Source: Desulfofarcimen acetoxidans DSM 771
GTDB taxonomy: Bacteria; Bacillota; Desulfotomaculia; Desulfotomaculales; Desulfofarciminaceae
Reading direction: 5' to 3'
DNA: 64,000 nt
Assembly (NCBI RefSeq): GCF_000024205.1
Contig: NC_013216.1
Span: forward strand, 3,906,001 to 3,970,000
Made by a program: the position numbers and the translations under genes. Positions 9,572 through 37,903 of this stretch are shown here, in pieces; the first letter of the stretch is position 1; every line of letters begins with the position of its first letter. The notes under the pieces are model-generated. The model was given only the letters and a program-made list of their open reading frames with translations, had not been told where the DNA came from and searched no databases.

Positions 9572-12500
9572 TCACCTCGTTCCCTGCGCAATATTAGCGC
9601 TGTATACCGTTGCCGTATGGCCTGCGCCGTCCTTGTAAATCAAATAGGCTCTCCCGTACCAGGTGTCGCCGTCTTCAACATTCCCCTTGATGATATAGAA
9701 CTGGCTGGCGGAGGTATCCAGTATTTTGCCGAGGATTACATTGGGAGTATCCACCTTCAGGTCAGCCACCGCTGTCGGTGATTTTAGCAGCAACACGCCG
9801 CTCTCCACCAAAGTGAAGCCAGCCGGAAGATCTTTGATTGCCGTGAACATGATGGTCCCGTTTGTCGAATTTACCATTACATCATCAGACAATGTGATAA
9901 ACGGTTTATTTTCAATCACCCCACCGTTGTCAACAAACACGGCGACAAGCGTGGTGTTCTCCATAGGGGTAAAGAATGTAAACGTGGATTTCGTGCTTAC
10001 CTTTTTACCGTCCTGCTCCCAATGGCTGAATTTTCGTCCGTCCGGCGCGGTGTCCGCCACCACCGTTACCGGCATATCGAACCTGTAGCTGCCGTTATTT
10101 CCGCCTGTGGATAGGGTTCCGCCCGTCACGGTTACCGTATGGTCATCCGCTTTTCTTACATAGACGGCGGTGATAACCATATCGGAGGTTACGCTGCCCG
10201 ACGAATGGCTCCAATGAGAGAAGCTGTACCCGAACAGCGGGGGAGCGATGGGAGGAGTTACCGATCCGTTCTTCGCTACATTCGTCGATTGCAGAATTCT
10301 TCCGTTCTTGTCTTTAAATGTAACGGTGTAACAAGTGTCCCCCGCAGCGGGAGCTTTGCTGAACACCGCTATCAGGTTAATCCCTGATCCCATAATGATT
10401 TCATAATCCGGGCTGGTGGAAATGACGCTTGAGCTTTCCACGTTCAGCCAATAAGCAAAGATATATCCCGAATTTGCCTTGGCTTCCAGGCGAATGGGGT
10501 CACCCATTTCACACGGCTCGCTATATACCGTCGAAAGGGGCGCCGAATCGCCGTTCAGCTTCACTGCCCCTCCGGCCAGTGTCTTGACTTCCAGGTAACC
10601 TCTTTTGACAGCTGTGCTTACATCTTCCCAAACGGCGTAGAGGATAAGGTCGTGGGCCGGCATGGTCACCGTCGCGTCCGGCGCGTCCTTGGCGTAAGCG
10701 GTGCCTCCCGTGCAAAGGGGATTGGTATACCAGTACTTGAACTTCTTACCGCCCGGCGGGGTAAATGTATTGTTTGCCGCCGCGAAGGTTGCGCCGGCGG
10801 TTTTGACACTCTCTGTCGGGGCGGTGCCGGTACCGCCGTTGGCGTCGTAGGTGGCGCTGTAGGTCACCGCAGGCTCTGCTCCCGTCGCCGGGAACTCCGC
10901 CGTGATTATGCCGGAATTGGCAGCGTTGGTCGCGGTTGCTCCGGTCACAGTGAAGAAGTTCTCGGTAACACCGTTAAAGGTATAACCGGCTTTAGGAGTA
11001 AGAGTGATGGTCACCGTATACACCGTGATTGGCGCAAAGGGGTTATGGGCAGGATTCCAGGTCACGGTCCCGGTGTATTGTGCCGTTTCGATGATCCCTG
11101 CCGCAGGCGCCGCGCCGCATACCGGAGCTGTCACACCTGTGATCGCCGCGATGCTGACTGGGGTATCCGGTACCGCATCGTTAATCGCTATGGTCAGCGT
11201 CGCCGGTGCGCCTTTGGCGAATACGACAGTCAATACGAGGTTGCCCGGGGCCTTTGCCGCCAGATATTCCTTATTGATGGCCAGGGCCGGGGTGGCTGTG
11301 TCGCCGTCGATGGCGGTCACGCTGTAGCTTCCCGTCCCGATGGAGGTTGTACCCGCCTTGATGTCGGATATGGAAACCGCGTCGTTCAAGGTGACGGTCG
11401 CGGTCACATTCGCCGGCTCAGCTTTGTAAAAGGTCCCGCTGGCAGGGCTGATGACGGCGCCCTTGATCAGGCTTGCGTAACACGCGAGATAATCCAGATT
11501 CAATATCGCGTCACCCTTGTCATATTGAACTTTCAGGCTGTCTCCGCCGGCAATTTCCAAAGGAAGCCATAGGCTGCTAAAGCACCCTTCGCCGTACCAA
11601 TCACCCGTAGAGGCGAATGTAACGTCTTGAATATGCGCGCCATTTTTGTAAATGCTGATCGTTCCGCTGTTTGGGCTGGCGTAGCGGATTTCAACCATAG
11701 GCGACTGGGGCAGGCTGTTCCATTGGACGTAGCTGCTTCCCTTTTGGTTGATATCCCCAACCTGTTTTCCTCCCAAAGCCCCACAGCCTGAGCATCGCCG
11801 AAAACCTTCGCTTTGTAAATAACCGCGTCTTCCGCCTCAAACTTGCCCGGGATAGCGGGAACAGTCAGGTTAAAGGTCTTTGGCTTTTCCGTCCCGCCCA
11901 TATAGGAAACCGTTGCGGTCAAAGCAACCGCTTGGTCGACGAGCTGCCTTGTTACGGCACCCGTATCGGTGTTAATAATACCCGTGGGGAGTGCGCTCCA
12001 GGCTATGGCCGTGCCGTTTGCCCCTATTTTTGGTAGATTAAGGGCCGCTTTAACATTATTTTCCGTGCTGTTGCCGCTTTTTATAGCGTCCCATACGAGG
12101 GCGTCAAGGTCGGCGTCAATCCGCTCGACGGGCGTGTAGTCGCACCAGATGGCGTACAGCGTCAGGTTCTGCGGGGGCACCGCAGCTGTCGTTCCCGGCG
12201 AATACGCCGTGCGGGAGCCATCCGCCGCCGTGTTCCACTCCTTGAACTTTTTGTTCGCCGGGGGAGTGAAGGTGTTGTTTGCCACCGTGAAGGTATTGCC
12301 CATGACCACGGTCTCCCCCGCCGGTGCCGTTCCACTGCCGCCGTTGGCGTTATAGCTTAAGGTGAAGTTACCTGCATTCCAGCTTGCATAGAGAATCACA
12401 TCGGCATCCGGCATCGTGTAGAGCGCACCGTTGACATATTGTACGTAACCAGTCGCCGGTGTCGTGTTCCAGCCGGCAAAGCTGTATCCGGCCCGGGTGA

Positions 12501-12609
12501 ATGTATTGCTTGCCAAATAGAACTGCTGACCTGTATTCGTTGCTTTATTGGTCATCGTACCGGCGCCGCCGTTGGCGTTATATTTCAGGGTGTGGGGATT
12601 TCCCGTCCA
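9572..12609 (-). pseudogene. Decayed Listeria-Bacteroides-repeat surface protein
   Basis: Two overlapping frames together encode a secreted-type repeat protein of about 1,010 residues. From the N-terminal side it has two Listeria-Bacteroides repeats (TLKYNANGG, YANGG-like and FAGWN signatures), an atrophied-Ig-like domain, a CBM6-like start (KFEAEDAVIYKAKVFG), an X2-like domain (SIGTGSYSVTAIDGDT), and further YDANGGTGTAP and YWYTNP repeats. The frame breaks near 11772-11774; one extra G in the run would restore LWGGKQVGDINQKGSS. Upstream the frame hits a stop at 12610-12612 just after a repeat ending (WTGNPHTLKY), and there is no signal peptide, start or binding site, so the N-terminus is missing. 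There is no sortase or SLH anchor. Its end is immediately followed by the precursor peptide gene. A separate small in-frame surface-protein fragment cannot be excluded. Confidence 0.7.
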
Positions 12610-21673: not shown

Positions 21674-23008
21674 CTAAAACTTTGTTAAATATTCTTCAAT
21701 TTCCCATGGGTGAACCTGTATCCTATAGCGATCCCACTCAATAAGCTTAGCATCTATAAATCGCTGGCAGACATGTTTGCCAAGTGCATCCTGCATCAAT
21801 TCACTTCTTTGAAGTTCCAACAAAGCGGCATAAAGATTCTCCGGCAAATTGCCAATGCCTAATTCACTGCGTTCAGCATCAGTCATATCATAAATATTGC
21901 GGTCACAGGCAGGTGGGGGCATTGTTTTATTCTTTATACCATCAAGACCGGCCCGCAGGCAAACTGCCAGTGCTAAATAAGGATTGCAGGACGGATCAGG
22001 ACTTCTTAATTCAATTCTGGTTGACAAACCCCGTTTAGCAGGAACACGAATCAGAGGACTTCTGTTACGGGAGGACCAGGCTATATATACAGGAGCTTCG
22101 TAACCTGATACAAGCCGTTTATAGGAATTTACATTGGGATTAGTGATCGCAGCAATAGCACGGGCATACTTAAGCAAGCCGCCAATATAATACATAGAGT
22201 CTTCACTCATCTGATTGGGCAAATTAGGATCAAAAAAGATATTCTTACCATCCTTCATTAAGGACTGATTTAAATGCATACCGGAACCGGCAATACCGAA
22301 AATCGGTTTGGGCATAAAAGTAGCGTGCAAGCCATGCCGCTGGGCAATAGTGCGAACAACAAATCTAAATGTAACTATCTTATCGGCTATATCCAGAGCA
22401 TCGGAATATTTAAAATCAATCTCATGCTGCCCCGGAGCCACCTCGTGGTGAGAAGCCTCGATTTCAAATCCCATACTTTCCAAAGCCAAAACCATATCAC
22501 GCCGGGCATTTTCCCCTAAGTCTACCGGAGTCAGATCAAAGTAGCCGGCCCGATCATGGGTAACAGTAGTCGGCCTGCCTTCAGTATCAACATGAAAAAG
22601 GAAAAATTCAGCCTCCGGCCCCACATTCATCGTGCTGTAACCCATAGATTCCGCTTCCTGCAAAGATCGACGCAAAACAAAGCGAGGATCACCTTCAAAA
22701 GGTGTACCGTCAGGATTATAGATATCGCAAATAAGTCTGGCAACCGCCCCATCCCTGGGTTTCCAAGGAAAAATAACAAAAGTGGAAGGATCAGGGCGTA
22801 AATACATGTCGGATTCTTCAATACGCACAAAACCATCAATAGATGATCCGTCAAACATTAACTCCCCTGCTAAAGCCTTCTCCAACTGTTCAACGGTAAT
22901 CGAAACATTTTTTAAGACGCCAAAAATATCTGTAAACTGTAGGCGGATAAATTTGACTCCCAAATCATTTGCTAAACTACGAACATCGTCGTTAGTAAGT
23001 TTAGACAT
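21674..23008 (-). CDS. glnA: Glutamine synthetase type I (copy 1)
   Basis: This 444-residue enzyme has the standard Firmicutes GS I-alpha motifs: [42 protein letters not shown], the flap [21 protein letters not shown] and the C-terminal [16 protein letters not shown]. There is no adenylylation-site signature of the I-beta class, so control is likely by feedback and transcription. It makes glutamine from glutamate, ATP and ammonia. The ATG has GGAAGGTGA 8 nt upstream. It is preceded by its own ANTAR-type leader. Confidence 0.96.
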
Positions 23009-23046
23009 TTGTTTAATTCACCTTCCCCCGGTTAATCAATGGAGTC

Positions 23047-23128
23047 CAAAAAACGCAAAAAGGCCACACCTACAGGTATTTCTCACCCCTGCATGCAGGC
23101 TCCGTTGCCTTAGGCACAACATTGTACC
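23047..23128 (-). promoter_or_regulatory. ANTAR-type antiterminator/terminator leader of glnA copy 1
   Basis: On the minus strand, P1 (23128-23113) is GGTAC-AATGTT-GTGCC (one G-U pair). P2 (23110-23097) is AGGC-AACGGA-GCCT, after a 2-nt linker. Both hexaloops have A1 and G4. The P2 3' arm merges into an imperfect terminator stem (CTGCATGCAGG against CCTGTAGGTG) followed by CTTTTTGCGTTTTTT. Confidence 0.78.
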
Positions 23129-23186
23129 CCATTTATATTTAAAATAAACTATAGCATATCTCCTTAAGAAAATCCACACATTTTGC

Positions 23187-23222
23187 AAGAAAAAATCCCT
23201 TACCTAATTAAGGTGAGGGATT
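23187..23222 (-). terminator. Terminator of glnA copy 2
   Basis: On the minus strand, AATCCCT-CA-CCTT pairs with AGG-TA-AGGGATT and is followed by TTTTTT. A second small hairpin CCCCT/AGGGG precedes it at about 23239-23253. Together they end the transcript before the next leader. Confidence 0.75.
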
Positions 23223-23290
23223 ATAGAAGGATGGTAGTCCCCTAATTAAGGGGAAAATATATGCCATAAATAAAAATTACACCAAACATA

Positions 23291-24622
23291 TTAGAACTTT
23301 GTCAAATACTCTTCAACTTCCCAATTATGCACTTGTACACGATAGTTATCCCATTCAACAAGTTTTGACTCCATGAAACGATCAAAGATATGATTTCCCA
23401 GAGCACTCTTAATTACCGGATCAGCGGCTAATTCATCCAAAGCCTCTCTCAGGCTGCCAGGCAAACTGGGAATATTGTTTTCCAAACGCTCAGCAGCATT
23501 CATATGATAAATATTGCGATCACACGCAGCCGGATGCTGAAGCTTGTTTTTAATGCCATCCAAACCTGCTTTTAAAGCCACAGAGATAGCTAAATACGGA
23601 TTGCAGGAGGGATCGGGATTTCTTAATTCTACTCTGGTTGACAGTCCACGCTTAGCAGGTACTCTTATAAGAGGGCTGCGATTGCGGCAAGACCAGGCTA
23701 TATATACAGGTGCTTCATAGCCGGGTACCAAACGTTTATATGAATTTACAGTAGGATTGGTAATAGCCGCCAATGCACGTGCATGCTTAACCAAACCGGC
23801 AATATAATAATAAGCTGTCTCACTTAATGCATTCGGCCCACTCGGATCATAAAAAGCATTCTGGTCATCCTTAAATAAAGACTGGTTCATATGCATACCG
23901 GAACCATTAATACCGAAAATCGGTTTAGGCATAAATGTCGCATGCAAACCGTGACGTTGTGCAACAGTACGCACAACAAATTTAAATGTCATAATCTTAT
24001 CGGCAATATCCAAAGCATCCGAATATTTAAAATCAATCTCATGCTGACCGGGAGCTACCTCATGGTGAGAGGCCTCTACCTCAAAACCCATATCTTCCAG
24101 TGTTAGTACCATATCACGGCGGGCATTTTCGCCTAAATCTACCGGAGCCATATCAAAATAACCGGCGCGATCATGTGTTTCCAGTGTAGGACGACCCTCT
24201 TCGTCCACATGGAACATAAAAAATTCTAATTCGGGCCCTACATTCATGGTATAACCCAACTCTTTAGCCTCTGCCAGAGTTTTTTTCATAATATGCCTGG
24301 AACAACCTTCAAAAGGAGTGCCATCGGGATTATAAATATCACAGATTAAACGAGCAACAGCCCCTTCACGTGGACGCCAGGGAAAAATTACAAAGGTTTT
24401 CGGATCCGGACGTAAATACATGTCTGACTCTTCAATACGTGTAAAACCATGAATTGAGGAACCATCAAACATTAACTCACCGTCTAATGCTTTGTCTAAT
24501 TGTTCCACCGGAATAGCAACATTCTTCAAAAGCCCAAAAATATCGCTAAACTGTAATCTAATAAACTTAACTCCCGCCTCCCGAACTTTTTCAAAAACCT
24601 CCATTTTTATTGCAGCATCCAT
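23291..24622 (-). CDS. glnA: Glutamine synthetase type I (copy 2)
   Basis: This 443-residue enzyme is closely similar to copy 1 and retains [35 protein letters not shown], the flap [22 protein letters not shown] and the [11 protein letters not shown] segment. The frame is open 24 codons further up, but those codons are leader sequence; AAAGGTGG precedes the ATG at 24622, which is the real start. Tandem GS copies may be expressed under different nitrogen conditions. It follows the first ANTAR gene and has its own ANTAR-type leader between them. Confidence 0.95.
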
Positions 24623-24700
24623 GTTTTTATGCCACCTTTCATATCTTGTATAAAAAATATTTAATAAAATAGATAATAATACATAATTTACCATATAACA

Positions 24701-24775
24701 TAAAGAAACCTTTAAAGTAATTTTATTATCACTTTAAAGGCCTCGTTGCCTTATAAAATATAGACAGCATTGTCT
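24701..24775 (-). promoter_or_regulatory. ANTAR-type antiterminator/terminator leader of glnA copy 2
   Basis: This is the clearest example in the window. On the minus strand, P1 (24775-24762) is AGAC-AATGCT-GTCT and P2 (24752-24737) is AAGGC-AACGAG-GCCTT, with a 9-nt linker. Both loops have A1 and G4. The P2 3' arm is the start of a terminator with a perfect 10-bp stem CCTTTAAAGT/ACTTTAAAGG (24740-24709) followed by TTTCTTTA. P2 and the terminator are mutually exclusive. It begins immediately after the ANTAR gene stop. Confidence 0.88.
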
Positions 24776-24792
24776 GTAATATAGTAAACCAG

Positions 24793-25368
24793 CTACAAGT
24801 TATTTGCTAAAATTATTGCATCTGCAATAACCCGCATGGAAACCCTTTTGTTCATACTTTGTTTGCGCATCCGGTTAAAGGCCTCAGATTCGTTCAAGCC
24901 ATGCTTCTCCATTAAGATACCCTTAGCCCGCTCCACAACTTTTCTTGTTTCCAATGTTTCCTTAAGTTCAGCCACCTGCGATTCCAATTTGACTAACTCT
25001 TTATACTTTGTAATAGTTAATTCTATGGTCGGCACCAAGGTGGTTTCCTCTATCGGACTTACCAAAAAAGCAAAAACATTTGCCCTTTTAGCTTTCTCCA
25101 CTAAATCAGCCTGTGAAGTGGAAGCAATCAAAACAACAGGAGCCAATTTATCCTCATGAACAATTCGGGCTACTTCCAACCCATCCATTCCCGGCAGCAG
25201 GGGTTCCATTATCACCAATTCCGGCTGCCTGCTCCTAATCATTTTTAAAGCAGTCAAACCGTCGCCGGCTTCACCCACAACATAGTAACCCGACCGGTTC
25301 AGTATAGATTTAATATTGTTCCTCCACGCGGTATCTTTGGCAACCAAAACTATTCTTTGTTCACCCAT
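24793..25368 (-). CDS. ANTAR-domain antitermination regulator with degenerate receiver
   Basis: This protein of about 191 residues has a receiver-like domain, a coiled-coil linker (VKLESQVAELKETLETRK) and a C-terminal ANTAR RNA-binding domain (ERAKGILMEKHGLNESEAFNRMRKQSM). In the receiver the phosphoacceptor Asp is replaced by Glu (IMEPLLPGMDG), the paired N-terminal acidic residues are reduced to one (VAKD), and the switch Lys is Ser (LVSPI). It is therefore unlikely to be phosphorylated normally and may be always on, or controlled by protein binding. It sits between the glutamate synthase and glnA genes. The ATG at 25368 fits the upstream GGGG better than the GTG at 25377. Its own leader carries the ANTAR motif. 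Confidence 0.9.
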   Translation of the reverse strand: MGEQRIVLVAKDTAWRNNIKSILNRSGYYVVGEAGDGLTALKMIRSRQPELVIMEPLLPGMDGLEVARIVHEDKLAPVVLIASTSQADLVEKAKRANVFAFLVSPIEETTLVPTIELTITKYKELVKLESQVAELKETLETRKVVERAKGILMEKHGLNESEAFNRMRKQSMNKRVSMRVIADAIILANNL

Positions 25369-25394
25369 GGAGTACACACCCCGTTACTCAAGAT

Positions 25395-25467
25395 AAAAAT
25401 GCCCTCAACAGAAAATATACTGTCGGGGCACCATTGCCGAGTTTAAGATACGTCATTGTATCTTAAA
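25395..25467 (-). promoter_or_regulatory. ANTAR-type leader of the ANTAR gene itself
   Basis: On the minus strand, P1 (25467-25442) has a 10-bp stem TTTAAGATAC/GTATCTTAAA around the loop AATGAC. P2 (25438-25427) is GGC-AATGGT-GCC, a short stem. Both loops have A1 and G4. P2 overlaps a terminator, GCCCCGACAG against CTGTTGAGGGC with one bulge, followed by ATTTTTA. The placement implies autoregulation of the regulator. Confidence 0.72.
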
Positions 25468-25515
25468 CAATTATATATTAACCTAATCCGCAATGCAATA
25501 GTTTTTTTAGCAACC

Positions 25516-27093
25516 TTAGCCGAGAATTTGTTCCACCTCTTCAGCATCAGCGTCCATGATATAGCTTATACCTGTGATTTCAGCAGCTTCCTTAGTAAGC
25601 GATACAATATCGTCGCGGCCAATCAGACCCAAGTTAAATTTACGCGCTCCACACATGAACTGACGTAAGCCTTGAGACAAACGCTCGTAGTAACTGTATA
25701 CACCGATAGCACCGACCGGCAGGTCATCAAAATCAGAACCCAACTTATCCTTTAGCTCACTTGCAGCAACAAAAATCTGTTCCATACTTTCACCATACTT
25801 CTTATACTCGGCTATAGTCAAACCTTTCTTTATAGCCTGCCCCACAGTCTTGCCTACCATAGCGGCAGTTAACGCCGAACGTGCCATTCCGATAGCCTTC
25901 ACATAAGGTGCGCTTATAGCAAAACCCTTAAACATATGATCTTCCAAAGCTAAACCACCGGCAATAGCTACATCAGGCACATAGGCACCTTTAGCAGCCA
26001 AACGGTCCAAATACTGGGTCATTAAAGCCTGTATATATACGGTCGGCAAACCCCACTCATTCATCATTCTCCAAGGACTCATACCTGTTCCGCCACCTGC
26101 GCCGTCAACAGTCAAAAGATCCAGTTTAGCATCAGAAGCATATTTAACTGCACGGGCTAAGTCGGCCGGACGATATGCACCGGTTTTCAGGAAAACATAT
26201 TTAGCACCGGCATTACGCAGTACTTCCACGCGCTGCATAAAGGACTCGTATTCGACCATACCAACACGGGAATGACGCTCAAACTCACTGAAAGCACCGG
26301 CTTTATAAGCTTCCTGAACCTTCGGGTCTTCCGGGTTTGGCAGCACGATGTAACCGCGACTCTTTAACTGAAGTGCACGTTCCAAGGTATTCAGCTTTAC
26401 TTCGCCGCCAATATCCTTAGCACCCTGACCCCACTTAAGTTCAACCGCATCAACACCCAACTTTTCCAAAGCATATTCCTGAACACCCAAAGTGGTATCT
26501 TCCACATTAGCCTGAACGGCAATAAAACCTTTACCGTTATACCACTTCTGAAAATCTTTAACCCGGCGAGCCAGGTTCGGAGAATTAACTACACGGCCAT
26601 TTTTGATTTCCACATTCGGATCCATGCCACAAACGTTCTCACCAATAGCAATACCGCCACCACAAATAGCCACACCGGCTGCCAGGTGATCCCAGTTATC
26701 GGCGGCTACATTAGTGGAACCCATAGCTGCCACAACAATGGGAACATCCATCTTAATCTTGTTTGTGCTGCCAAATTCCGTAGAAATATCGACGGCCGGG
26801 AAAATCGCCTTTTCGGAATCGGCTTCGATGCCATGAGCACCAACAGCTGTACCCATAATATTAAAGTGAGAATAATCTACAGGATATTCTTTTTGTGAGG
26901 CAGACGTAGTTTTGCCAAACGGGGCAGGATAGAGAACCTCTTTCCCCCTTACTGCCGATTTACCGATTTCACAAAGGCCCGGACACCCATCCAAACAAGT
27001 TACACACATCCCGCTAGGACTAAAATCCTTACCTGTCCGCAGTTTGGTTAATGTTGCGGTACTCGCGTTAACACCTTTACTAAATCCACTCAT
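25516..27093 (-). CDS. FMN-binding glutamate synthase-family protein (stand-alone synthase domain)
   Basis: This 525-residue protein has an N-terminal cysteine cluster CVTCLDGCPGLC, a ferredoxin-like or 4Fe-4S motif, followed by the glutamate synthase FMN barrel (ELKWGQGAKDIGGEV, TVDGAGGGTGMSPWRMM, AGGLALEDH). It lacks the amidotransferase and GXGXG domains, so ammonia must come from free ammonium or another subunit. Related single-domain proteins occur in archaea and clostridia as ferredoxin-linked glutamate synthases, but activity here is inferred. It lies between the divergent glnA and the ANTAR gene in the nitrogen block. No ANTAR hairpins were seen in the 145-nt upstream spacer. Confidence 0.85.
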   Translation of the reverse strand: MSGFSKGVNASTATLTKLRTGKDFSPSGMCVTCLDGCPGLCEIGKSAVRGKEVLYPAPFGKTTSASQKEYPVDYSHFNIMGTAVGAHGIEADSEKAIFPAVDISTEFGSTNKIKMDVPIVVAAMGSTNVAADNWDHLAAGVAICGGGIAIGENVCGMDPNVEIKNGRVVNSPNLARRVKDFQKWYNGKGFIAVQANVEDTTLGVQEYALEKLGVDAVELKWGQGAKDIGGEVKLNTLERALQLKSRGYIVLPNPEDPKVQEAYKAGAFSEFERHSRVGMVEYESFMQRVEVLRNAGAKYVFLKTGAYRPADLARAVKYASDAKLDLLTVDGAGGGTGMSPWRMMNEWGLPTVYIQALMTQYLDRLAAKGAYVPDVAIAGGLALEDHMFKGFAISAPYVKAIGMARSALTAAMVGKTVGQAIKKGLTIAEYKKYGESMEQIFVAASELKDKLGSDFDDLPVGAIGVYSYYERLSQGLRQFMCGARKFNLGLIGRDDIVSLTKEAAEITGISYIMDADAEEVEQILG

Positions 27094-27238
27094 TGACTAC
27101 CATCCCCCTGTTTTTATCTATATTTTTATCTAAACACTTATTCAAAAGTCGGCCAGAGCTATTATGCTATATGATTAACATATAAGCTCGCATTAAAATC
27201 ACCGGCTTTTAAATAAAGAAATTTTCAGTTCACTTTCT

Positions 27239-28573
27239 CTAATAATTCCTTAAATATTCCTCGATTTCCCAAGGGTGTATTATAGTATTAAAGCGCTTGC
27301 ATTCTTCCTCCTTAGTTTCAATAAAACGACTATAAATTTGTTCACCAAGCGTTTCTTTAATTACTTCGTTAGCTGATAAAGCACATAAGGCTTCATTAAG
27401 ATTGGACGGCAAGCCGTAATTCTTGATAATTTTTCCCAATCCACCATGCAAATTATTTTCTTCCATGGCGGCAGGAGGTTTAATTTTAGATATAATCCCA
27501 ACTAACCCTGCTTTCAAGGTTACCGCCATAGCCAAGTAAGGGTTGCAAGTGCCGTCAGGACTGCGTAAAACAATTCTAGTGCCGCTTTCCCGCTGAGACG
27601 GCACACGAATCATGGTACTGCGATTTTGCTCAGACCATCCGGCCAAAACCGGAGCTGCCAGATCCAAACCAAGTCTTTTATATGAATTAATCAGCGGGTT
27701 GGTTATAGCTGTTAAGGCTCTTGCATGTTCCAGCAATCCACCCATATAATAATAAGCTGTCTTACTCAGCTGCTGGCAATTAGCATGAGAAGGTGCGTGA
27801 AAAGCATTCTCCCCCTCTTTCCACAGAGAATGATGCAGATGCAGACCGGATCCGTTAAAACCGGCCAGAGGCTTTGGCATAAAAGAAGCATGCAAACCAT
27901 GCCGCTGAGCAATTGTTCTTACCACAAACTTAAAAGTAGCTAAGTTATCCGCCATTGATAGAGCATCACTTTCTTTTAGAGAAATTTCGTGCTGACCGGC
28001 AGAAACCTCGTGATGAGAAGAAGAAATCTCAAATCCCATACTTTCCAGAGTGAGTACCATATCCCTCCTGGCGTTTTCCCCCAAATCCACGGGGGTTAAA
28101 TCACAATAACCGGCTTGATCGTGAGTTACCGTAGTAGGCTTACCCTGATCATCCATATAGAACATAAAAAACTCAATTTCGGCTCCTGAACGAAGCCCAT
28201 AGCCCAACCGCTCCGCCTCCAACAACACCCGCTTTAGGACACTGCGCGGGCATGCCGAAAATGGCTCACCATCAGAACCATATACGTCACAAATTAAACG
28301 AGCTACCGCTCCATTCCTTGGCCTCCAAGGAAATATAACAAAAGTTTCCGGATCCGGACACAAATAAATATCTGACTGCTTGCTTTGCGCAAAACCTTCT
28401 ATTACCGCATTATCGAACATTATCCCACCATTTAGGGCTCTCTCCAGCTCTTCTATAGTGATAGCAATATTTTTAAAGGATCCTAAAATATCGGTAAACT
28501 GCAGCCGGATAAACTTAACATCATACTCCTTGGCTTTTTCCAATACATCCTCTTTTGATAATAGACTCAGCAC
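27239..28573 (-). CDS. Divergent glutamine synthetase-like protein (copy 3)
   Basis: This 444-residue protein aligns along its whole length with the two normal copies but has changed catalytic regions. MFDGSSI is MFDNAVI, so the Ser of the ammonium-site loop is gone. [10 protein letters not shown] is [20 protein letters not shown] is GSGLHLHHSL. The flap [11 protein letters not shown] is LDLAAPVLAGWS, losing the flap Glu. Many nucleotide-site residues remain (RVPSQRESGTRIVLRSPDG). It may be a regulatory pseudo-enzyme or act on another amine. The GTG at 28573 follows GAGGTG and gives the same length as copy 1; the frame is open 13 codons further up. A partial ANTAR-type leader precedes it. Confidence 0.85.
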   Translation of the reverse strand: MLSLLSKEDVLEKAKEYDVKFIRLQFTDILGSFKNIAITIEELERALNGGIMFDNAVIEGFAQSKQSDIYLCPDPETFVIFPWRPRNGAVARLICDVYGSDGEPFSACPRSVLKRVLLEAERLGYGLRSGAEIEFFMFYMDDQGKPTTVTHDQAGYCDLTPVDLGENARRDMVLTLESMGFEISSSHHEVSAGQHEISLKESDALSMADNLATFKFVVRTIAQRHGLHASFMPKPLAGFNGSGLHLHHSLWKEGENAFHAPSHANCQQLSKTAYYYMGGLLEHARALTAITNPLINSYKRLGLDLAAPVLAGWSEQNRSTMIRVPSQRESGTRIVLRSPDGTCNPYLAMAVTLKAGLVGIISKIKPPAAMEENNLHGGLGKIIKNYGLPSNLNEALCALSANEVIKETLGEQIYSRFIETKEEECKRFNTIIHPWEIEEYLRNY

Positions 28574-28600
28574 AAAACACCTCAATCCCAGTTTAAAAAT

Positions 28601-28659
28601 AAAAAAATCCATTAATTGATCCTGCCATACAACAGGTCAACTAACGGACGTCTCTGCCC
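28601..28659 (-). promoter_or_regulatory. Partial ANTAR-type leader of the divergent glnA
   Basis: On the minus strand, GGGC-AGAGAC-GTCC (28659-28646) has a hexaloop with A1 and G4. Its 3' arm overlaps a long terminator, TCCGTTAGTTGA paired with TCAATTAATGGA (28648-28608), then TTTTTTT. A convincing upstream P1 hairpin was not found. TTGACT with a 17-nt spacer to TACCAT (28718-28690) is a likely promoter. Confidence 0.55.
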
Positions 28660-28721
28660 AAATATTAACTTATAACTTCTCTACAGGTAATGGTACATTA
28701 TCTTCAAAAAAAAGTCAAGCT

Positions 28722-29306
28722 TCAATTATTTTCTTTTTGTAGAAGAGAAATAATTTTTTTTGCTACCTTGGGAATTGCAATTCCCTTATCCATACTAATT
28801 TTTTGGATGAACTTGTGAGCTTCTTTTTCAGACAACCCTTTTTGGCTGATTAACAAACCCTTGGCTTTCTCTATAAGTTTTCCTTCCTCCAGCAACTTTT
28901 TCAATTCTTTGTTCTCATTTTCCAGTCTAAGAAGTCTTTTGAAACTTGCAATAGCTATCTCAATTGCCGGAAAGAGATTTTCTTGATTAATAGGTTTTAA
29001 TAAATAGCCAAACACCCAGGAATGTTTGGCTTCCTCAATCAATTCACGTTGGCTATAGGCAGTTAAAAGCAAAACGGGAGCCACCCTATGTTCCTCAATA
29101 ACACGTGCTATTTCCAGTCCTTCACAACCAGGAATATTAGAATCCATAATAATTAAATCCGGTTCGGTCTTAAAGATAACCTGCAGAGCGCTTTTTGCAT
29201 CATATACCTCACCTACCACCATATATCCGACATGAGTTAAACTGTCTTTCAGTTTTTTTAAAAACACCCTGTCAGCATCTGCAATAACTATTCTGGTCCC
29301 GTACAT
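28722..29306 (-). CDS. ANTAR-domain response regulator with intact receiver
   Basis: This 194-residue protein has a receiver with D10 and D12, phosphoacceptor D55 (LIIMDSNIP) and Lys in LLKPI, a coiled coil (LENENKELKKLLEEGKL) and an ANTAR domain (EKAKGLLISQKGLSEKEAHKFIQKISM). Unlike its paralogue in the same block it keeps the residues needed for phosphorylation. It is likely a transcription antiterminator for the nitrogen genes downstream. The cognate kinase is not beside it. It is the first gene of the nitrogen block in transcription order, with a 350-nt upstream spacer. Confidence 0.92.
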   Translation of the reverse strand: MYGTRIVIADADRVFLKKLKDSLTHVGYMVVGEVYDAKSALQVIFKTEPDLIIMDSNIPGCEGLEIARVIEEHRVAPVLLLTAYSQRELIEEAKHSWVFGYLLKPINQENLFPAIEIAIASFKRLLRLENENKELKKLLEEGKLIEKAKGLLISQKGLSEKEAHKFIQKISMDKGIAIPKVAKKIISLLQKENN

Positions 29307-33378: not shown

Positions 33379-34143
33379 TTACATAAAACCCCAGTACCAT
33401 AAGATAAGCTTCTCTCCCCAGAATACAGCAAGAAGTGCTCCCAGTGACAAAAACGGCCCAAACGGTACGGGATCCTTCCTGCCCTTGCGACCGGACAACA
33501 TTAAAACCAAGCCAACAACACCACCGGTTAAAAAGGCCAAAAAGAAAGCTACAATTAAATTATTTAAGCCCAAATACAACCCTATCATTGCACCAAGCTT
33601 AATGTCACCGCCTCCCATTCCGCCGCAGGAAACAATAGCAACAATTAAAAGAAAGCCTCCCCCGACAACAAATGCCATTAAGCCTGACTTTAGTACCTCC
33701 CAGGACTGCAAGGCCGTAAGCGGCAAACCGGCAATAAGACCTGCCAAAATAATGCGATTAGGGATAATTTGGTGATATAAATCTATTACTGAAGCCACTA
33801 TTAATAAAGAAATAAATAACCACATAGCCGGGGTTATCCAGGCATAACCAAAACGCAGCCACACTGCTGTATAGCTCAGTGCTGTAAACAATTCTACCAT
33901 AGGGTATTGCCGGGAGAAAACTGCTCCACAATATTTACAACGGCCCTTGAATAATAAATAACCTGCTATTGGTAAAATTTCAGGCAAGCCCAACCTGTTA
34001 TGACAACTCATACAATGTGATGGCGGGCTAATAATCGATTCGCCCAGAGGCATGCGGCAAATACATACATTTAAAAAGCTGCCTACACAGGCACCGACAA
34101 TAAAGACCAATAAAAAAGACAAGTAACTCATAATATCACCCAC
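33379..34143 (-). CDS. Type IV prepilin peptidase (A24 aspartic protease)
   Basis: This protein of about 250 residues has the paired CxxC zinc motifs (CMSCHNRLG, CKYCGAVF) between the first two membrane helices, and the two catalytic Asp sites VIDLYHQIIPN and GGGDIKLGAMIG. It has about eight membrane segments. It cleaves and N-methylates type IV prepilins or competence pseudopilins. No pilin genes are visible here. The ATG at 34131 (MSYLSFLLVF) is a likely alternative start to the GTG at 34143. Confidence 0.92.
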   Translation of the reverse strand: MGDIMSYLSFLLVFIVGACVGSFLNVCICRMPLGESIISPPSHCMSCHNRLGLPEILPIAGYLLFKGRCKYCGAVFSRQYPMVELFTALSYTAVWLRFGYAWITPAMWLFISLLIVASVIDLYHQIIPNRIILAGLIAGLPLTALQSWEVLKSGLMAFVVGGGFLLIVAIVSCGGMGGGDIKLGAMIGLYLGLNNLIVAFFLAFLTGGVVGLVLMLSGRKGRKDPVPFGPFLSLGALLAVFWGEKLILWYWGFM

Positions 34144-34365
34144 GACAACAGTTATCTGTTAAATATTATTATAACGTGTTTATTAAATCAATTAACTGTA
34201 TTATTTTAAAACAATATTTTATAATTAAGATGTGATTATCTGGGTCAATTATCTCTGTAGCTATTACTTGACATGTACTAATTATATATTTTTTGCAGGA
34301 AATAATAAACATACATCTAAATATTATTGTTGAAACAAATACTTTACGAGCGGTGGCGGTCAACC

Positions 34366-36654
34366 ATGTTTGACTTACTGGCCAAAAAAGCACCCGGACG
34401 CAACACCTATCAAACCCTTACCGGACATACAATAGACGACATAAAAGTGCTGGCCTGCTATATTAACGAGAATAAATCTTCACTTCAAAGGTTTGCCCGT
34501 GATTTTACCATAGATTACGAGGAACTGTGCAACATTATTTTTCTGGCCCTGTTTTTCCATGACCTTGGTAAAGCTACTCAGGAATACCAGAAAAATATTA
34601 TTACCGGCCAGGTAAACCTCAATGTTTCTCACCCTTTTTTTGCTATGCCTTTTACACAAACAAATTTACCCAAGGAAAGTGAACTTCTTTTACGCTGCCT
34701 TGTTTTATCTCATCACAATCAACTTTATGATTATATATACAGGCGTGTTCCCATAAAACCACGTGTGAACTATCATTTTGAGCAAATTACGGCTTTTATA
34801 GAAAGTTACGCTGAAATATACCGACAATATCTGGAGAATATGTTTAAACTGCGTTATCATCCCATCTCTGAATATCCGGCCTATATATACAGCAACAATC
34901 AGAGAGATCATATTTTCTCCTTGATAACCTCTACCCGTTATGATATAGACAACCTTGAAGACAAGGTTAAATTTAAAGCGATATATTGTTATCTGTTGTC
35001 AATTATGAAATACTGCGATCAACAATCCAGCAAAGCTTTTTCTCAAAATTGCCTGCAGCCGGAAACAATTTATGACCAAGTGTTTGATCCCGGAAATCTT
35101 GCCGGTTCTGCACAGATTTTGAAAAATACATTGCCGCCTGTTGTTTCTCTCAAAGCCTGCTGCGATGAATTAACAACAGGGCAATTTAATTTGTTTTTAG
35201 CCCCGATTAACCGCAACAGGCGGGAACTTGTGGTACAGCAGGCACTGATGCTGGCTAACCGGGAACACAGATCACGAATAATCTATGTGCTGCCGTATCA
35301 ACTGGCTTCCGAGCCCATTTTTGAGTGGTTGAAGGATATTTTTGGTTCTGCCAATGTAGGGTTGATCCATACTATGAGTTATTATGTAAAGGAGCAGCTG
35401 ATACCCAATGAATTAAAGCAAAAAGGGGATCAGGGCAGAGATACCGCCAGAAACTTGCGCTACGGAGATCGTATTTTTGACAAACAAGTGACTGTTACAA
35501 CAATAGACCACTTAGTCTATACAATGGTACACGGCTATAAGCAATCGGACTTCGCTCTGGGCAAATTGCTAAACTCAGTTATTATTTTTGAGGGATTTAA
35601 TCCCAACAGTTGTTCTTCTCAACGATACCTGCTTGACTGCATTAAGCTGTTGTGGAAAATGAAAATTCCATGCTTGGGAGCAACAAGTTTTGTACCTGGT
35701 CAATTCCAAAACTATATTTACCAAAACCATAATTGCAGGATTTTTGATTTACATAACAGCGATCAAAAATTTCAATGCAAAATAACGGAAAAGACTTTGG
35801 AGGGAAACAAGGACGAATACATTCGACTTTATCACCAGGGAAAAAAACAGTTAATTTTCTGTGATAATATATTTCAAGCACAAAGGCTTTTCCTGAAACT
35901 TAAAAAATTATTATTTAATAGCAATGTTTATCTGTGTCATTCTGTTTACAGCAGTCATGATCGCTACTATTCTCCTACCAGTAAGCACAAGCAGATCAGC
36001 AAACTGGACAAACTGCCTGGCCCATGGGTAATAGTTGCCACCCAGGCAATTCTGGCCTATACTTTCGATATCAATTGTGATACTGTTCATACTGGCACTA
36101 AATCTTTAGAATGCCTGCTGCACCGCATCAATACTTTGTATCAGCCTGGACGTGGAACAGACCAGACTGCCTACATATATCCCGGGCAGCAGGGTATCAA
36201 TCAAGAGACGGACTGGGATGAACTGCATGATCGTTGCTTTAGCTTTTCCCAAATTACTCAGCTGTACTATCAAAACAAATTTTCTACTGAATCAAGTTCA
36301 GCTACCAACCTGGCTAAAGTATTTAACTACTGTACACTATTTGGCTATTCACCTCAGGAAGTGCGGCAAGCCGCGGGAAATCGCAAGCAGATTCAAATGT
36401 GGAATGAAAAACAATACAAAATGGATGTCATACCGGAATGCGTCTGGGATCCGTATCTGCACAAAAACCCTGAAATGGCCGACAGTCTATATATTAAGTT
36501 ACCCTATTACTGGTACATTAAATATCCCCAGTATTTTTATCATGATGACGGTTTTTTTAAAAGCTTTATGATCTGCAAGCTGTCTTATAACAGCGAAATG
36601 GGACTGGACCTGCGAAAAATACAAAAAGAAGACAATGATGCGCTCTGGGTTTAA
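34366..36654 (+). CDS. Stand-alone Cas3-like protein with HD domain and degenerate helicase
   Basis: This protein of about 762 residues resembles Cas3. Its HD nuclease region keeps the metal residues: H21 (GHTID), H65-D66 with K69 (FHDLGK), H89 (SHPFF) and H116-H117 (SHHNQ). The helicase region is recognisable from motif Ic (TTIDHLVYT), motif III (GATSF), motif V (VATQAILAYTFDINCD) and a remnant of motif VI (HRINTLYQPGR). The Walker A loop is LAPINRNRRE without GKT, and the DEAD box is FEGFN, so ATP-driven unwinding is unlikely. The frame is intact. No CRISPR array, cas8/5/7 or adaptation gene lies near. It is the lone plus-strand gene between minus-strand genes. The ATG is preferred over TTGs 13 codons upstream. 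Function unknown; defence is a guess. Confidence 0.75.
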   Translation: MFDLLAKKAPGRNTYQTLTGHTIDDIKVLACYINENKSSLQRFARDFTIDYEELCNIIFLALFFHDLGKATQEYQKNIITGQVNLNVSHPFFAMPFTQTNLPKESELLLRCLVLSHHNQLYDYIYRRVPIKPRVNYHFEQITAFIESYAEIYRQYLENMFKLRYHPISEYPAYIYSNNQRDHIFSLITSTRYDIDNLEDKVKFKAIYCYLLSIMKYCDQQSSKAFSQNCLQPETIYDQVFDPGNLAGSAQILKNTLPPVVSLKACCDELTTGQFNLFLAPINRNRRELVVQQALMLANREHRSRIIYVLPYQLASEPIFEWLKDIFGSANVGLIHTMSYYVKEQLIPNELKQKGDQGRDTARNLRYGDRIFDKQVTVTTIDHLVYTMVHGYKQSDFALGKLLNSVIIFEGFNPNSCSSQRYLLDCIKLLWKMKIPCLGATSFVPGQFQNYIYQNHNCRIFDLHNSDQKFQCKITEKTLEGNKDEYIRLYHQGKKQLIFCDNIFQAQRLFLKLKKLLFNSNVYLCHSVYSSHDRYYSPTSKHKQISKLDKLPGPWVIVATQAILAYTFDINCDTVHTGTKSLECLLHRINTLYQPGRGTDQTAYIYPGQQGINQETDWDELHDRCFSFSQITQLYYQNKFSTESSSATNLAKVFNYCTLFGYSPQEVRQAAGNRKQIQMWNEKQYKMDVIPECVWDPYLHKNPEMADSLYIKLPYYWYIKYPQYFYHDDGFFKSFMICKLSYNSEMGLDLRKIQKEDNDALWV

Positions 36655-36781: not shown

Positions 36782-37903
36782 TTAAATATACACTCTTGGC
36801 ACACGAACATTCACCATACAAACTAATTCATAGTTAATAGTACCCATTTTCTCCGCCACCTCTTCAACCGGCAGGCTAGACTCACCCTGCTGGCCCCACA
36901 ATACCACTTCATCCCCGATCAAAGGGTCATTTATGTGGCCAACATCGATCATGCACTGATCCATACATACCCTGCCCACAACAGGTGCGCGCTGACCGTG
37001 AATCAACACCTCCGCCCGCGAGGATAGGAGACGGCTGTAACCGTCGGCATACCCAACAGGCAACGTGGCAATAAGAGTAGGCCGCCTGGTTATATATGTA
37101 CAACCATAACTGACCGGATAGCCCGCAGGCACCCTTTTTATATGTCCTACCTGCGTTTTAAAGGACATGGCCGGCTGCAAAACAATCCTGCTTTTGTCAA
37201 CCCCTTCAGATGGGTACAAACCGTACATGGCTATACCCGCGCGAACCATATTCAAATGCGTATCCGGCATATCAATAATTGCCGCGCTGTTGGCTGCATG
37301 CTTTAACTGTATATCCACCCCTTTGCGATGTAACTCCCGCAGCACTTCTTGAAACCTGAATAATTGCTGTCTGGTATAGCTTTTATCAATAATATCAGAC
37401 ACGGCAAAATGTGTAAAAATACCATCCACTTTTAAATGTGAAAGTCTGGTAACAGCTATAACCTGCTCAACAACAGCCTGACAGGCCTCAAAGCCCAATC
37501 GTCCCATACCGGTCTCAATTTTTATATGTACTTTCGCTTTTATACCTGCTTTAGTGGCTATGTCCGAAAGAATCTCGGCCTGCTGCATATTGAAAACAGT
37601 ATGAGACAGGTCATTTTTTAACGAAAACAACACTTCCCCGGGGGACAGATAGCCCAGCACTAAGACCGGACAGTCAATTCCGGCCTCGCGCAGTGCTACA
37701 CCCTCTGAAACACGGGAAACTGCCAGTATCACAACACCGTTATCCAAAGCAATCCTGGCGGTTTCCACAGCTCCGTGACCGTAAGCATCCGCCTTTACTA
37801 CAGCCATCAACTGTGCTCCGGGCGCAGCTATCCGCCGCAATTCTTGAATGTTATGAGCTATCGCCGAAAGATTAATTTCTGCCCAGGTGGTTTTCTCATA
37901 CAT
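36782..37903 (-). CDS. alr: Alanine racemase
   Basis: This 373-residue PLP enzyme has K37 in VVKADAYGHG, which forms the Schiff base, the catalytic Tyr in VSYGCTY, and the VGRVCMDQCMIDVG segment of the C-terminal domain. It supplies D-alanine for peptidoglycan and, in spore formers, influences germination. It begins where nnrDE ends (a shared base at 37903), so they form an operon with acpS upstream. This is the classical acpS-nnrD-alr order, but the mazEF genes that usually follow are about 32 kb away. Confidence 0.96.
   Translation of the reverse strand: MYEKTTWAEINLSAIAHNIQELRRIAAPGAQLMAVVKADAYGHGAVETARIALDNGVVILAVSRVSEGVALREAGIDCPVLVLGYLSPGEVLFSLKNDLSHTVFNMQQAEILSDIATKAGIKAKVHIKIETGMGRLGFEACQAVVEQVIAVTRLSHLKVDGIFTHFAVSDIIDKSYTRQQLFRFQEVLRELHRKGVDIQLKHAANSAAIIDMPDTHLNMVRAGIAMYGLYPSEGVDKSRIVLQPAMSFKTQVGHIKRVPAGYPVSYGCTYITRRPTLIATLPVGYADGYSRLLSSRAEVLIHGQRAPVVGRVCMDQCMIDVGHINDPLIGDEVVLWGQQGESSLPVEEVAEKMGTINYELVCMVNVRVPRVYI

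Follow-up and report, generated by a model that had tools for sequence, protein, structure and literature searches.

Cas3 nicks in a magnesium-dependent step that is separate from the later ATP-driven processive degradation and translocation (PMC8001533); certain type I systems have the HD nuclease as a protein of its own (PMC5965380). There is hardly any record of class 1 interference nucleases being reused outside CRISPR in the open-licence papers searched, and no description of a stand-alone, solitary or orphan Cas3 away from CRISPR was found in them. The protein described here is encoded in a 64-kb window (the whole stretch of DNA that was analyzed) covering positions 3,906,001-3,970,000 of the single 4,545,624-bp contig of Desulfofarcimen acetoxidans. 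Strain 5575T of this species, formerly Desulfotomaculum acetoxidans, is a free-living sulfate reducer, for whose genome 11 CRISPR repeats are given (PMC3035247).

The protein resembles type I-B Cas3 (PADLOC Cas3b PDLC01762; TIGR01587 and TIGR01596) in its domain order, HD ligands, fold and phylogenetic origin. Unlike type I-B Cas3, it has lost ATPase motifs I, II, III and VI, has no cas operon, occupies a chromosomal locus of its own and belongs to a single clade on a long stem. With Cas3'' (MJ0384, PDB 3s4l; type I-A Cas3-HD, PDB 7tr8 chain Q) it shares the HD fold and ligand pattern and, like it, is a predicted nuclease whose own chain supplies no helicase drive; it differs from Cas3'' in having its HD domain still attached to a dead helicase shell and in being encoded away from CRISPR loci. 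Its best whole-length structural match is the type I-E Cas3 of T. fusca (PDB 4qqw-4qqz), an active helicase working with Cascade to which it is only ~15% identical. The orphan is a clean natural split of the two Cas3 halves, with the nuclease residues kept and the motor lost, and it is never found in a cas locus in 11 genomes. It offers a test of how the Cas3 nuclease can act when its motor, and perhaps Cascade as well, is absent. It also cautions that a Cas3 annotation by itself is no proof of a CRISPR system.

A full-length Cas3 homologue with all HD ligands and without ATPase motifs

The gene lies on the plus strand at 34366..36654 of the window. Its ORF starts with an ATG at 34366 and remains open for 762 codons up to 36654, an alternative in-frame TTG start being possible at 34327. 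The 762-aa protein scored above the cut-offs of the Pfam models Cas3_HD and Cas3-like_C_2 and of NCBIfam cas3_HD (TIGR01596), and just under that of cas3_core (100.7 vs 102.45 bits). Over the whole length the closest models were those of Cas3b (PADLOC PDLC01762, residues 17-766, 2.3e-64). Together with the orthologues and the structural model presented below, these matches show that the Cas3 homologue encoded by the ORF is full-length and of type I-B origin.

As originally predicted, the metal ligands of the HD nuclease domain (aa 1-230, 34366..35055, plus strand) are all present. They form the H-HD-H-HH-D pattern of Cas3 (H21, H65, D66, H89, H116, H117 and D218), and the seven positions are invariant across 21/21 aligned Cas3s. 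The pseudo-RecA1 domain (aa 268-445, 35167..35700, plus strand) retains the motif Ic region (TTIDHL). Its Walker A motif is lost (LAPINRNRRE, aa 278-287), as is the DExH of motif II, which reads FEGFN (aa 408-412); both losses had been noted from the sequence and were found in the alignment. Motif III reads GATS, the SAT being lost. The pseudo-RecA2 domain (aa 446-612, 35701..36201, plus strand), which is the least conserved, has lost motif VI and contains no QRxGR. The C-terminal domain (aa 640-762, 36283..36651, plus strand) is well conserved and carries the pattern TNL...CTLFGYSP.EVR...DVIP.

The predicted fold of the orphan is that of Cas3

The Cas3-like nature of the protein agrees with its AF2 model (mean pLDDT 82.8, pTM 0.87), which has the overall Cas3 arrangement HD-RecA1-RecA2-CTD. 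The best structural match was whole-length T. fusca Cas3 (4qqx, Z 18.6 over 640 residues, rmsd 5.0), and comparison with Cas3 HD chains, Cas3'' included, gave Z values of 15.7-17.6. Active Cas3 homologues are part of the AF2 alignment; such a match was therefore expected from homology and carries no information on activity.

The orthologue of genome G033 (L042:7679-9700) has undergone a large internal deletion. An in-frame loss has removed the whole of the second RecA domain together with the P-loop strand, and stretches predicted to be disordered stand in their place. The HD, RecA1 and C-terminal parts were predicted with good confidence, and the model still matched Cas3 (4qqw, Z 16.9, 411 residues). 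Since RecA2 was lost while the other three parts were kept, it is not helicase function that selection keeps.

The same motif pattern defines a clade of eleven orthologues

All 113 genomes available for the class were searched, and orthologues with the same motif pattern were found in 11 of them. The carriers comprise both genomes of Desulfofarcimen's own family and all nine of a second family, which includes Desulfovirgula thermocuniculi. The "lone" Cas3 of the original prediction does lie outside cas loci, but it is a member of a conserved family and its host genome has ordinary CRISPR loci elsewhere.

The seven HD residues are invariant in 11/11 orthologues, across a divergence reaching ~30% identity. 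The Walker A (GxGKT) and DExH motifs of the SF2 helicase core are lost in every one of them: the catalytic E of motif II is G in 11/11, the T/S that follows the Walker lysine is lost in 11/11, and the lysine itself survives in one orthologue, its position being taken by R in nine others and by Q in the remaining one. Motif VI is likewise lost throughout. GxGK[ST] is retained in all 26 ordinary Cas3s resident in the carrier genomes and in all of the ~20 further Cas3s that the same searches returned from other genomes.

In the phylogenetic trees, the 11 orphans form one clade (support 100/100) on a long stem, sister to a I-B Cas3 clade. Long stems could help the orphans to group together; the shared motif losses argue in the same direction. 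Wherever the surroundings of the nearest non-orphan relatives were read, these relatives were located in type I cas operons, next to genes that resemble cas7, cas5, cas8 and cas4/cas1 as recognized from sequence. ATPase loss appears ancestral because the motif II glutamate is replaced by glycine in all orthologues, and the simplest account would be a single ancestral loss followed by drift of the dead motifs.

A wider spread of the family was considered and, within the reach of the following searches, rejected; the genome-wide and viral scans rest on short peptide patterns. Among the matches listed from 84,980 species, only Desulfovirgula and one ordinary Cas3' locus appeared. No further orphan was detected in 398 genomes sampled from the phylum, where the further matches were all ordinary Cas3s. 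A mobile origin was considered and rejected, no match being found in 72,556 plasmids or 50,697 phages; a scan of IMG/VR limited to two peptide patterns did not match the orphan either. Strictly vertical descent is not supported by the rpoB tree, in which the two carrier families are not sisters, but this tree is poorly resolved, so that the two-family distribution may reflect either ancient loss elsewhere or one old transfer.

The orphan gene is under purifying selection

Selection was estimated by the Nei-Gojobori method among six species, all from a single genus in the second family. The whole orphan gene gave dN/dS values of 0.27-0.42, compared with 0.20-0.28 for the resident active Cas3s and mostly 0.05-0.22 for the neighbouring housekeeping genes (one value of 0.52 came from a pair nearly without differences). 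In pairs split by domain, dN/dS was 0.15-0.20 for the HD domain (a single close pair, in which changes were few, gave 0.40) and 0.26-0.68 for the two RecA domains of the pseudo-helicase; values from close pairs are noisy. These data show purifying selection on the gene, weaker than that on housekeeping genes. The HD domain is about as constrained as an active Cas3 and has the lowest dN/dS in most second-family pairs.

A slowly decaying relic without function would account for dN/dS values above those of the neighbours and somewhat above those of the active Cas3s, as well as for the large internal deletion in one orthologue. None of the 11 orthologues contains an internal stop or frameshift at a divergence reaching ~30% identity, the HD residues have not changed, and the G033 deletion is in frame and spares the C-terminal domain. 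We consequently disfavour decay as highly improbable, in keeping with the original view that an open 762-codon frame is maintained; the random frameshifts by which relatives might have betrayed decay do not occur.

Conservation follows a different order in Desulfofarcimen's own family. Between D. acetoxidans and its family relative, pseudo-RecA1 is 80% identical and the HD domain 65%, so that the shell is not merely tolerated there. With pseudo-RecA1 as the best conserved domain, the protein could be a binding-only scaffold, attached to DNA or to protein, in which HD catalysis is unneeded. Such a scaffold would hardly hold seven ligands invariant at ~30% identity or give the HD domain the lowest dN/dS in most second-family pairs, and we consider it quite improbable.

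Orphan loci lie among housekeeping genes

None of the 11 loci is inside a cas operon or near cas genes, and none is co-encoded with Cascade genes or a CRISPR array; the case that would have refuted the original reading, degenerate homologues always encoded in type I cas operons, thus did not arise. They always lie amid housekeeping genes, in a neighbourhood that is constant within most of each carrier family. In both species of the Desulfofarcimen family, the orphan is flanked by alr and a prepilin peptidase gene. In most members of the second family its neighbours are a HIT-family gene on one side and an SDR gene on the other. A conserved operon partner common to both families was not found. 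Within the second family, there is one genus in which the orphan stop codon overlaps the start of the SDR-family gene (L039:9386-9389; also L038 and L070), and therefore both may be translated together in that genus.

Enzymes of the HD superfamily include phosphohydrolases and phosphodiesterases. The HD domain of the orphan might have been turned to such a reaction on a small molecule or nucleotide, and the HIT-family hydrolase gene that adjoins it in most of one family would suit this role. There is no adjoining HIT gene in Desulfofarcimen, however; the domain has the ligands and the fold of a Cas3 HD nuclease, and a Cas3-specific shell would be superfluous, which makes this reading unlikely. 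Of the repurposing originally envisaged, an HD nuclease is the best-supported form, whereas a phosphodiesterase or a role in defence is not specifically supported, the neighbours being housekeeping genes.

Relation of the orphan to resident CRISPR systems

All 11 carrier genomes have type I CRISPR, with cas1 and at least one intact ordinary Cas3; a carrier without CRISPR, which would oppose a role with Cascade, was not found among them. In D. acetoxidans, several ordinary CRISPR loci are present elsewhere in the genome, the nearest other Cas3 being ~98 kb away. Weak Cas3-like C-terminal helicase matches were also observed outside the window, at 3758426-3758680 and 2766040-2766312, in open frames of 914 and 1506 aa, respectively.

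This co-occurrence could mean that the orphan is an accessory acting in trans, either recruited by resident Cascades for nicking rather than shredding or competing with active Cas3 in a way that damps interference or promotes priming. The C-terminal domain, one of the better conserved portions of the shell, has been suggested as the connection between Cas3 and Cascade (PMC5965380). Against this, the resident Cas3 subfamilies differ between carriers, which weakens the case for a Cascade partner: genomes G042 and G087 possess a single ordinary Cas3 apiece, and the two belong to different subfamilies. Moreover, the nearest I-B relatives of the orphan are present in only 2/11 carrier genomes, and the orphan itself is never near cas genes, keeping a neighbourhood of its own within most of each family. 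An accessory role therefore appears doubtful.

We consider it fairly probable, given the homology, the motifs lost and kept, the conservation, the selection and the genomic isolation shown above, that the protein is an exapted, ATP-independent HD nuclease in a Cas3-shaped shell, derived from a I-B cas3 that left its operon and lost its ATPase once. In an ancestor of these Desulfotomaculia, an ordinary type I-B cas3 would have departed from its cas operon to become a fixed chromosomal gene. ATP hydrolysis would then have been lost once and early, with E replaced by G in motif II of all orthologues and the Walker lysine by R or Q in 10/11. Selection would have kept the two-metal HD site together with the Cas3-shaped shell, namely the first RecA lobe and the C-terminal domain. 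If only the nicking step has been retained, the orphan should cut or trim ssDNA delivered to it: a metal-dependent, ATP-independent HD nuclease could act on ssDNA presented by another factor or structure, and DNA would not be unwound or shredded as in the usual action of Cas3. We infer nuclease activity, from the residues, as well as an ssDNA substrate and independence from Cascade.

With somewhat less assurance, it is plausible that this Cas3 was domesticated after escaping CRISPR and, its motor lost once, has worked throughout the history of both families as a nuclease of the host in a pathway other than CRISPR, such as DNA repair, replication or a new defence. A Cas3 descendant kept far from CRISPR loci, with an apparently intact cutting centre and a motor lost in a shared ancestor, suggests that a CRISPR part has been recruited for another job in a group of sulfate-reducing bacteria.

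Surroundings of the gene in D. acetoxidans

In agreement with the original prediction, no cas genes or CRISPR-like arrays were found in the 64-kb window; tandem repeats were not found either. The surroundings of the orphan comprise a prepilin peptidase-like gene, an aconitase gene and an alr operon, named from sequence. The prepilin peptidase-like gene (33379..34143, minus strand) is divergent from the orphan and the alanine racemase-like gene (36782..37903, minus strand) is convergent with it; both hold the same positions in genome G001 and are regarded as neighbours outside the system.

Two further regions of the window were noted. At 9572-12555, long minus-strand ORFs resemble pieces of a surface protein with repeats of the InlB/Listeria-Bacteroides type. 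The G+C content of this region is 55%, compared with a window mean of 43%, a contrast that suggests a foreign or repeat-driven origin. At 21674-29306, three neighbouring glutamine synthetase-like genes were observed, two of which adjoin response regulators resembling the ANTAR type. The repetition of gene pairs suggests a local duplication, and the last glutamine synthetase/regulator pair is also present in G001.
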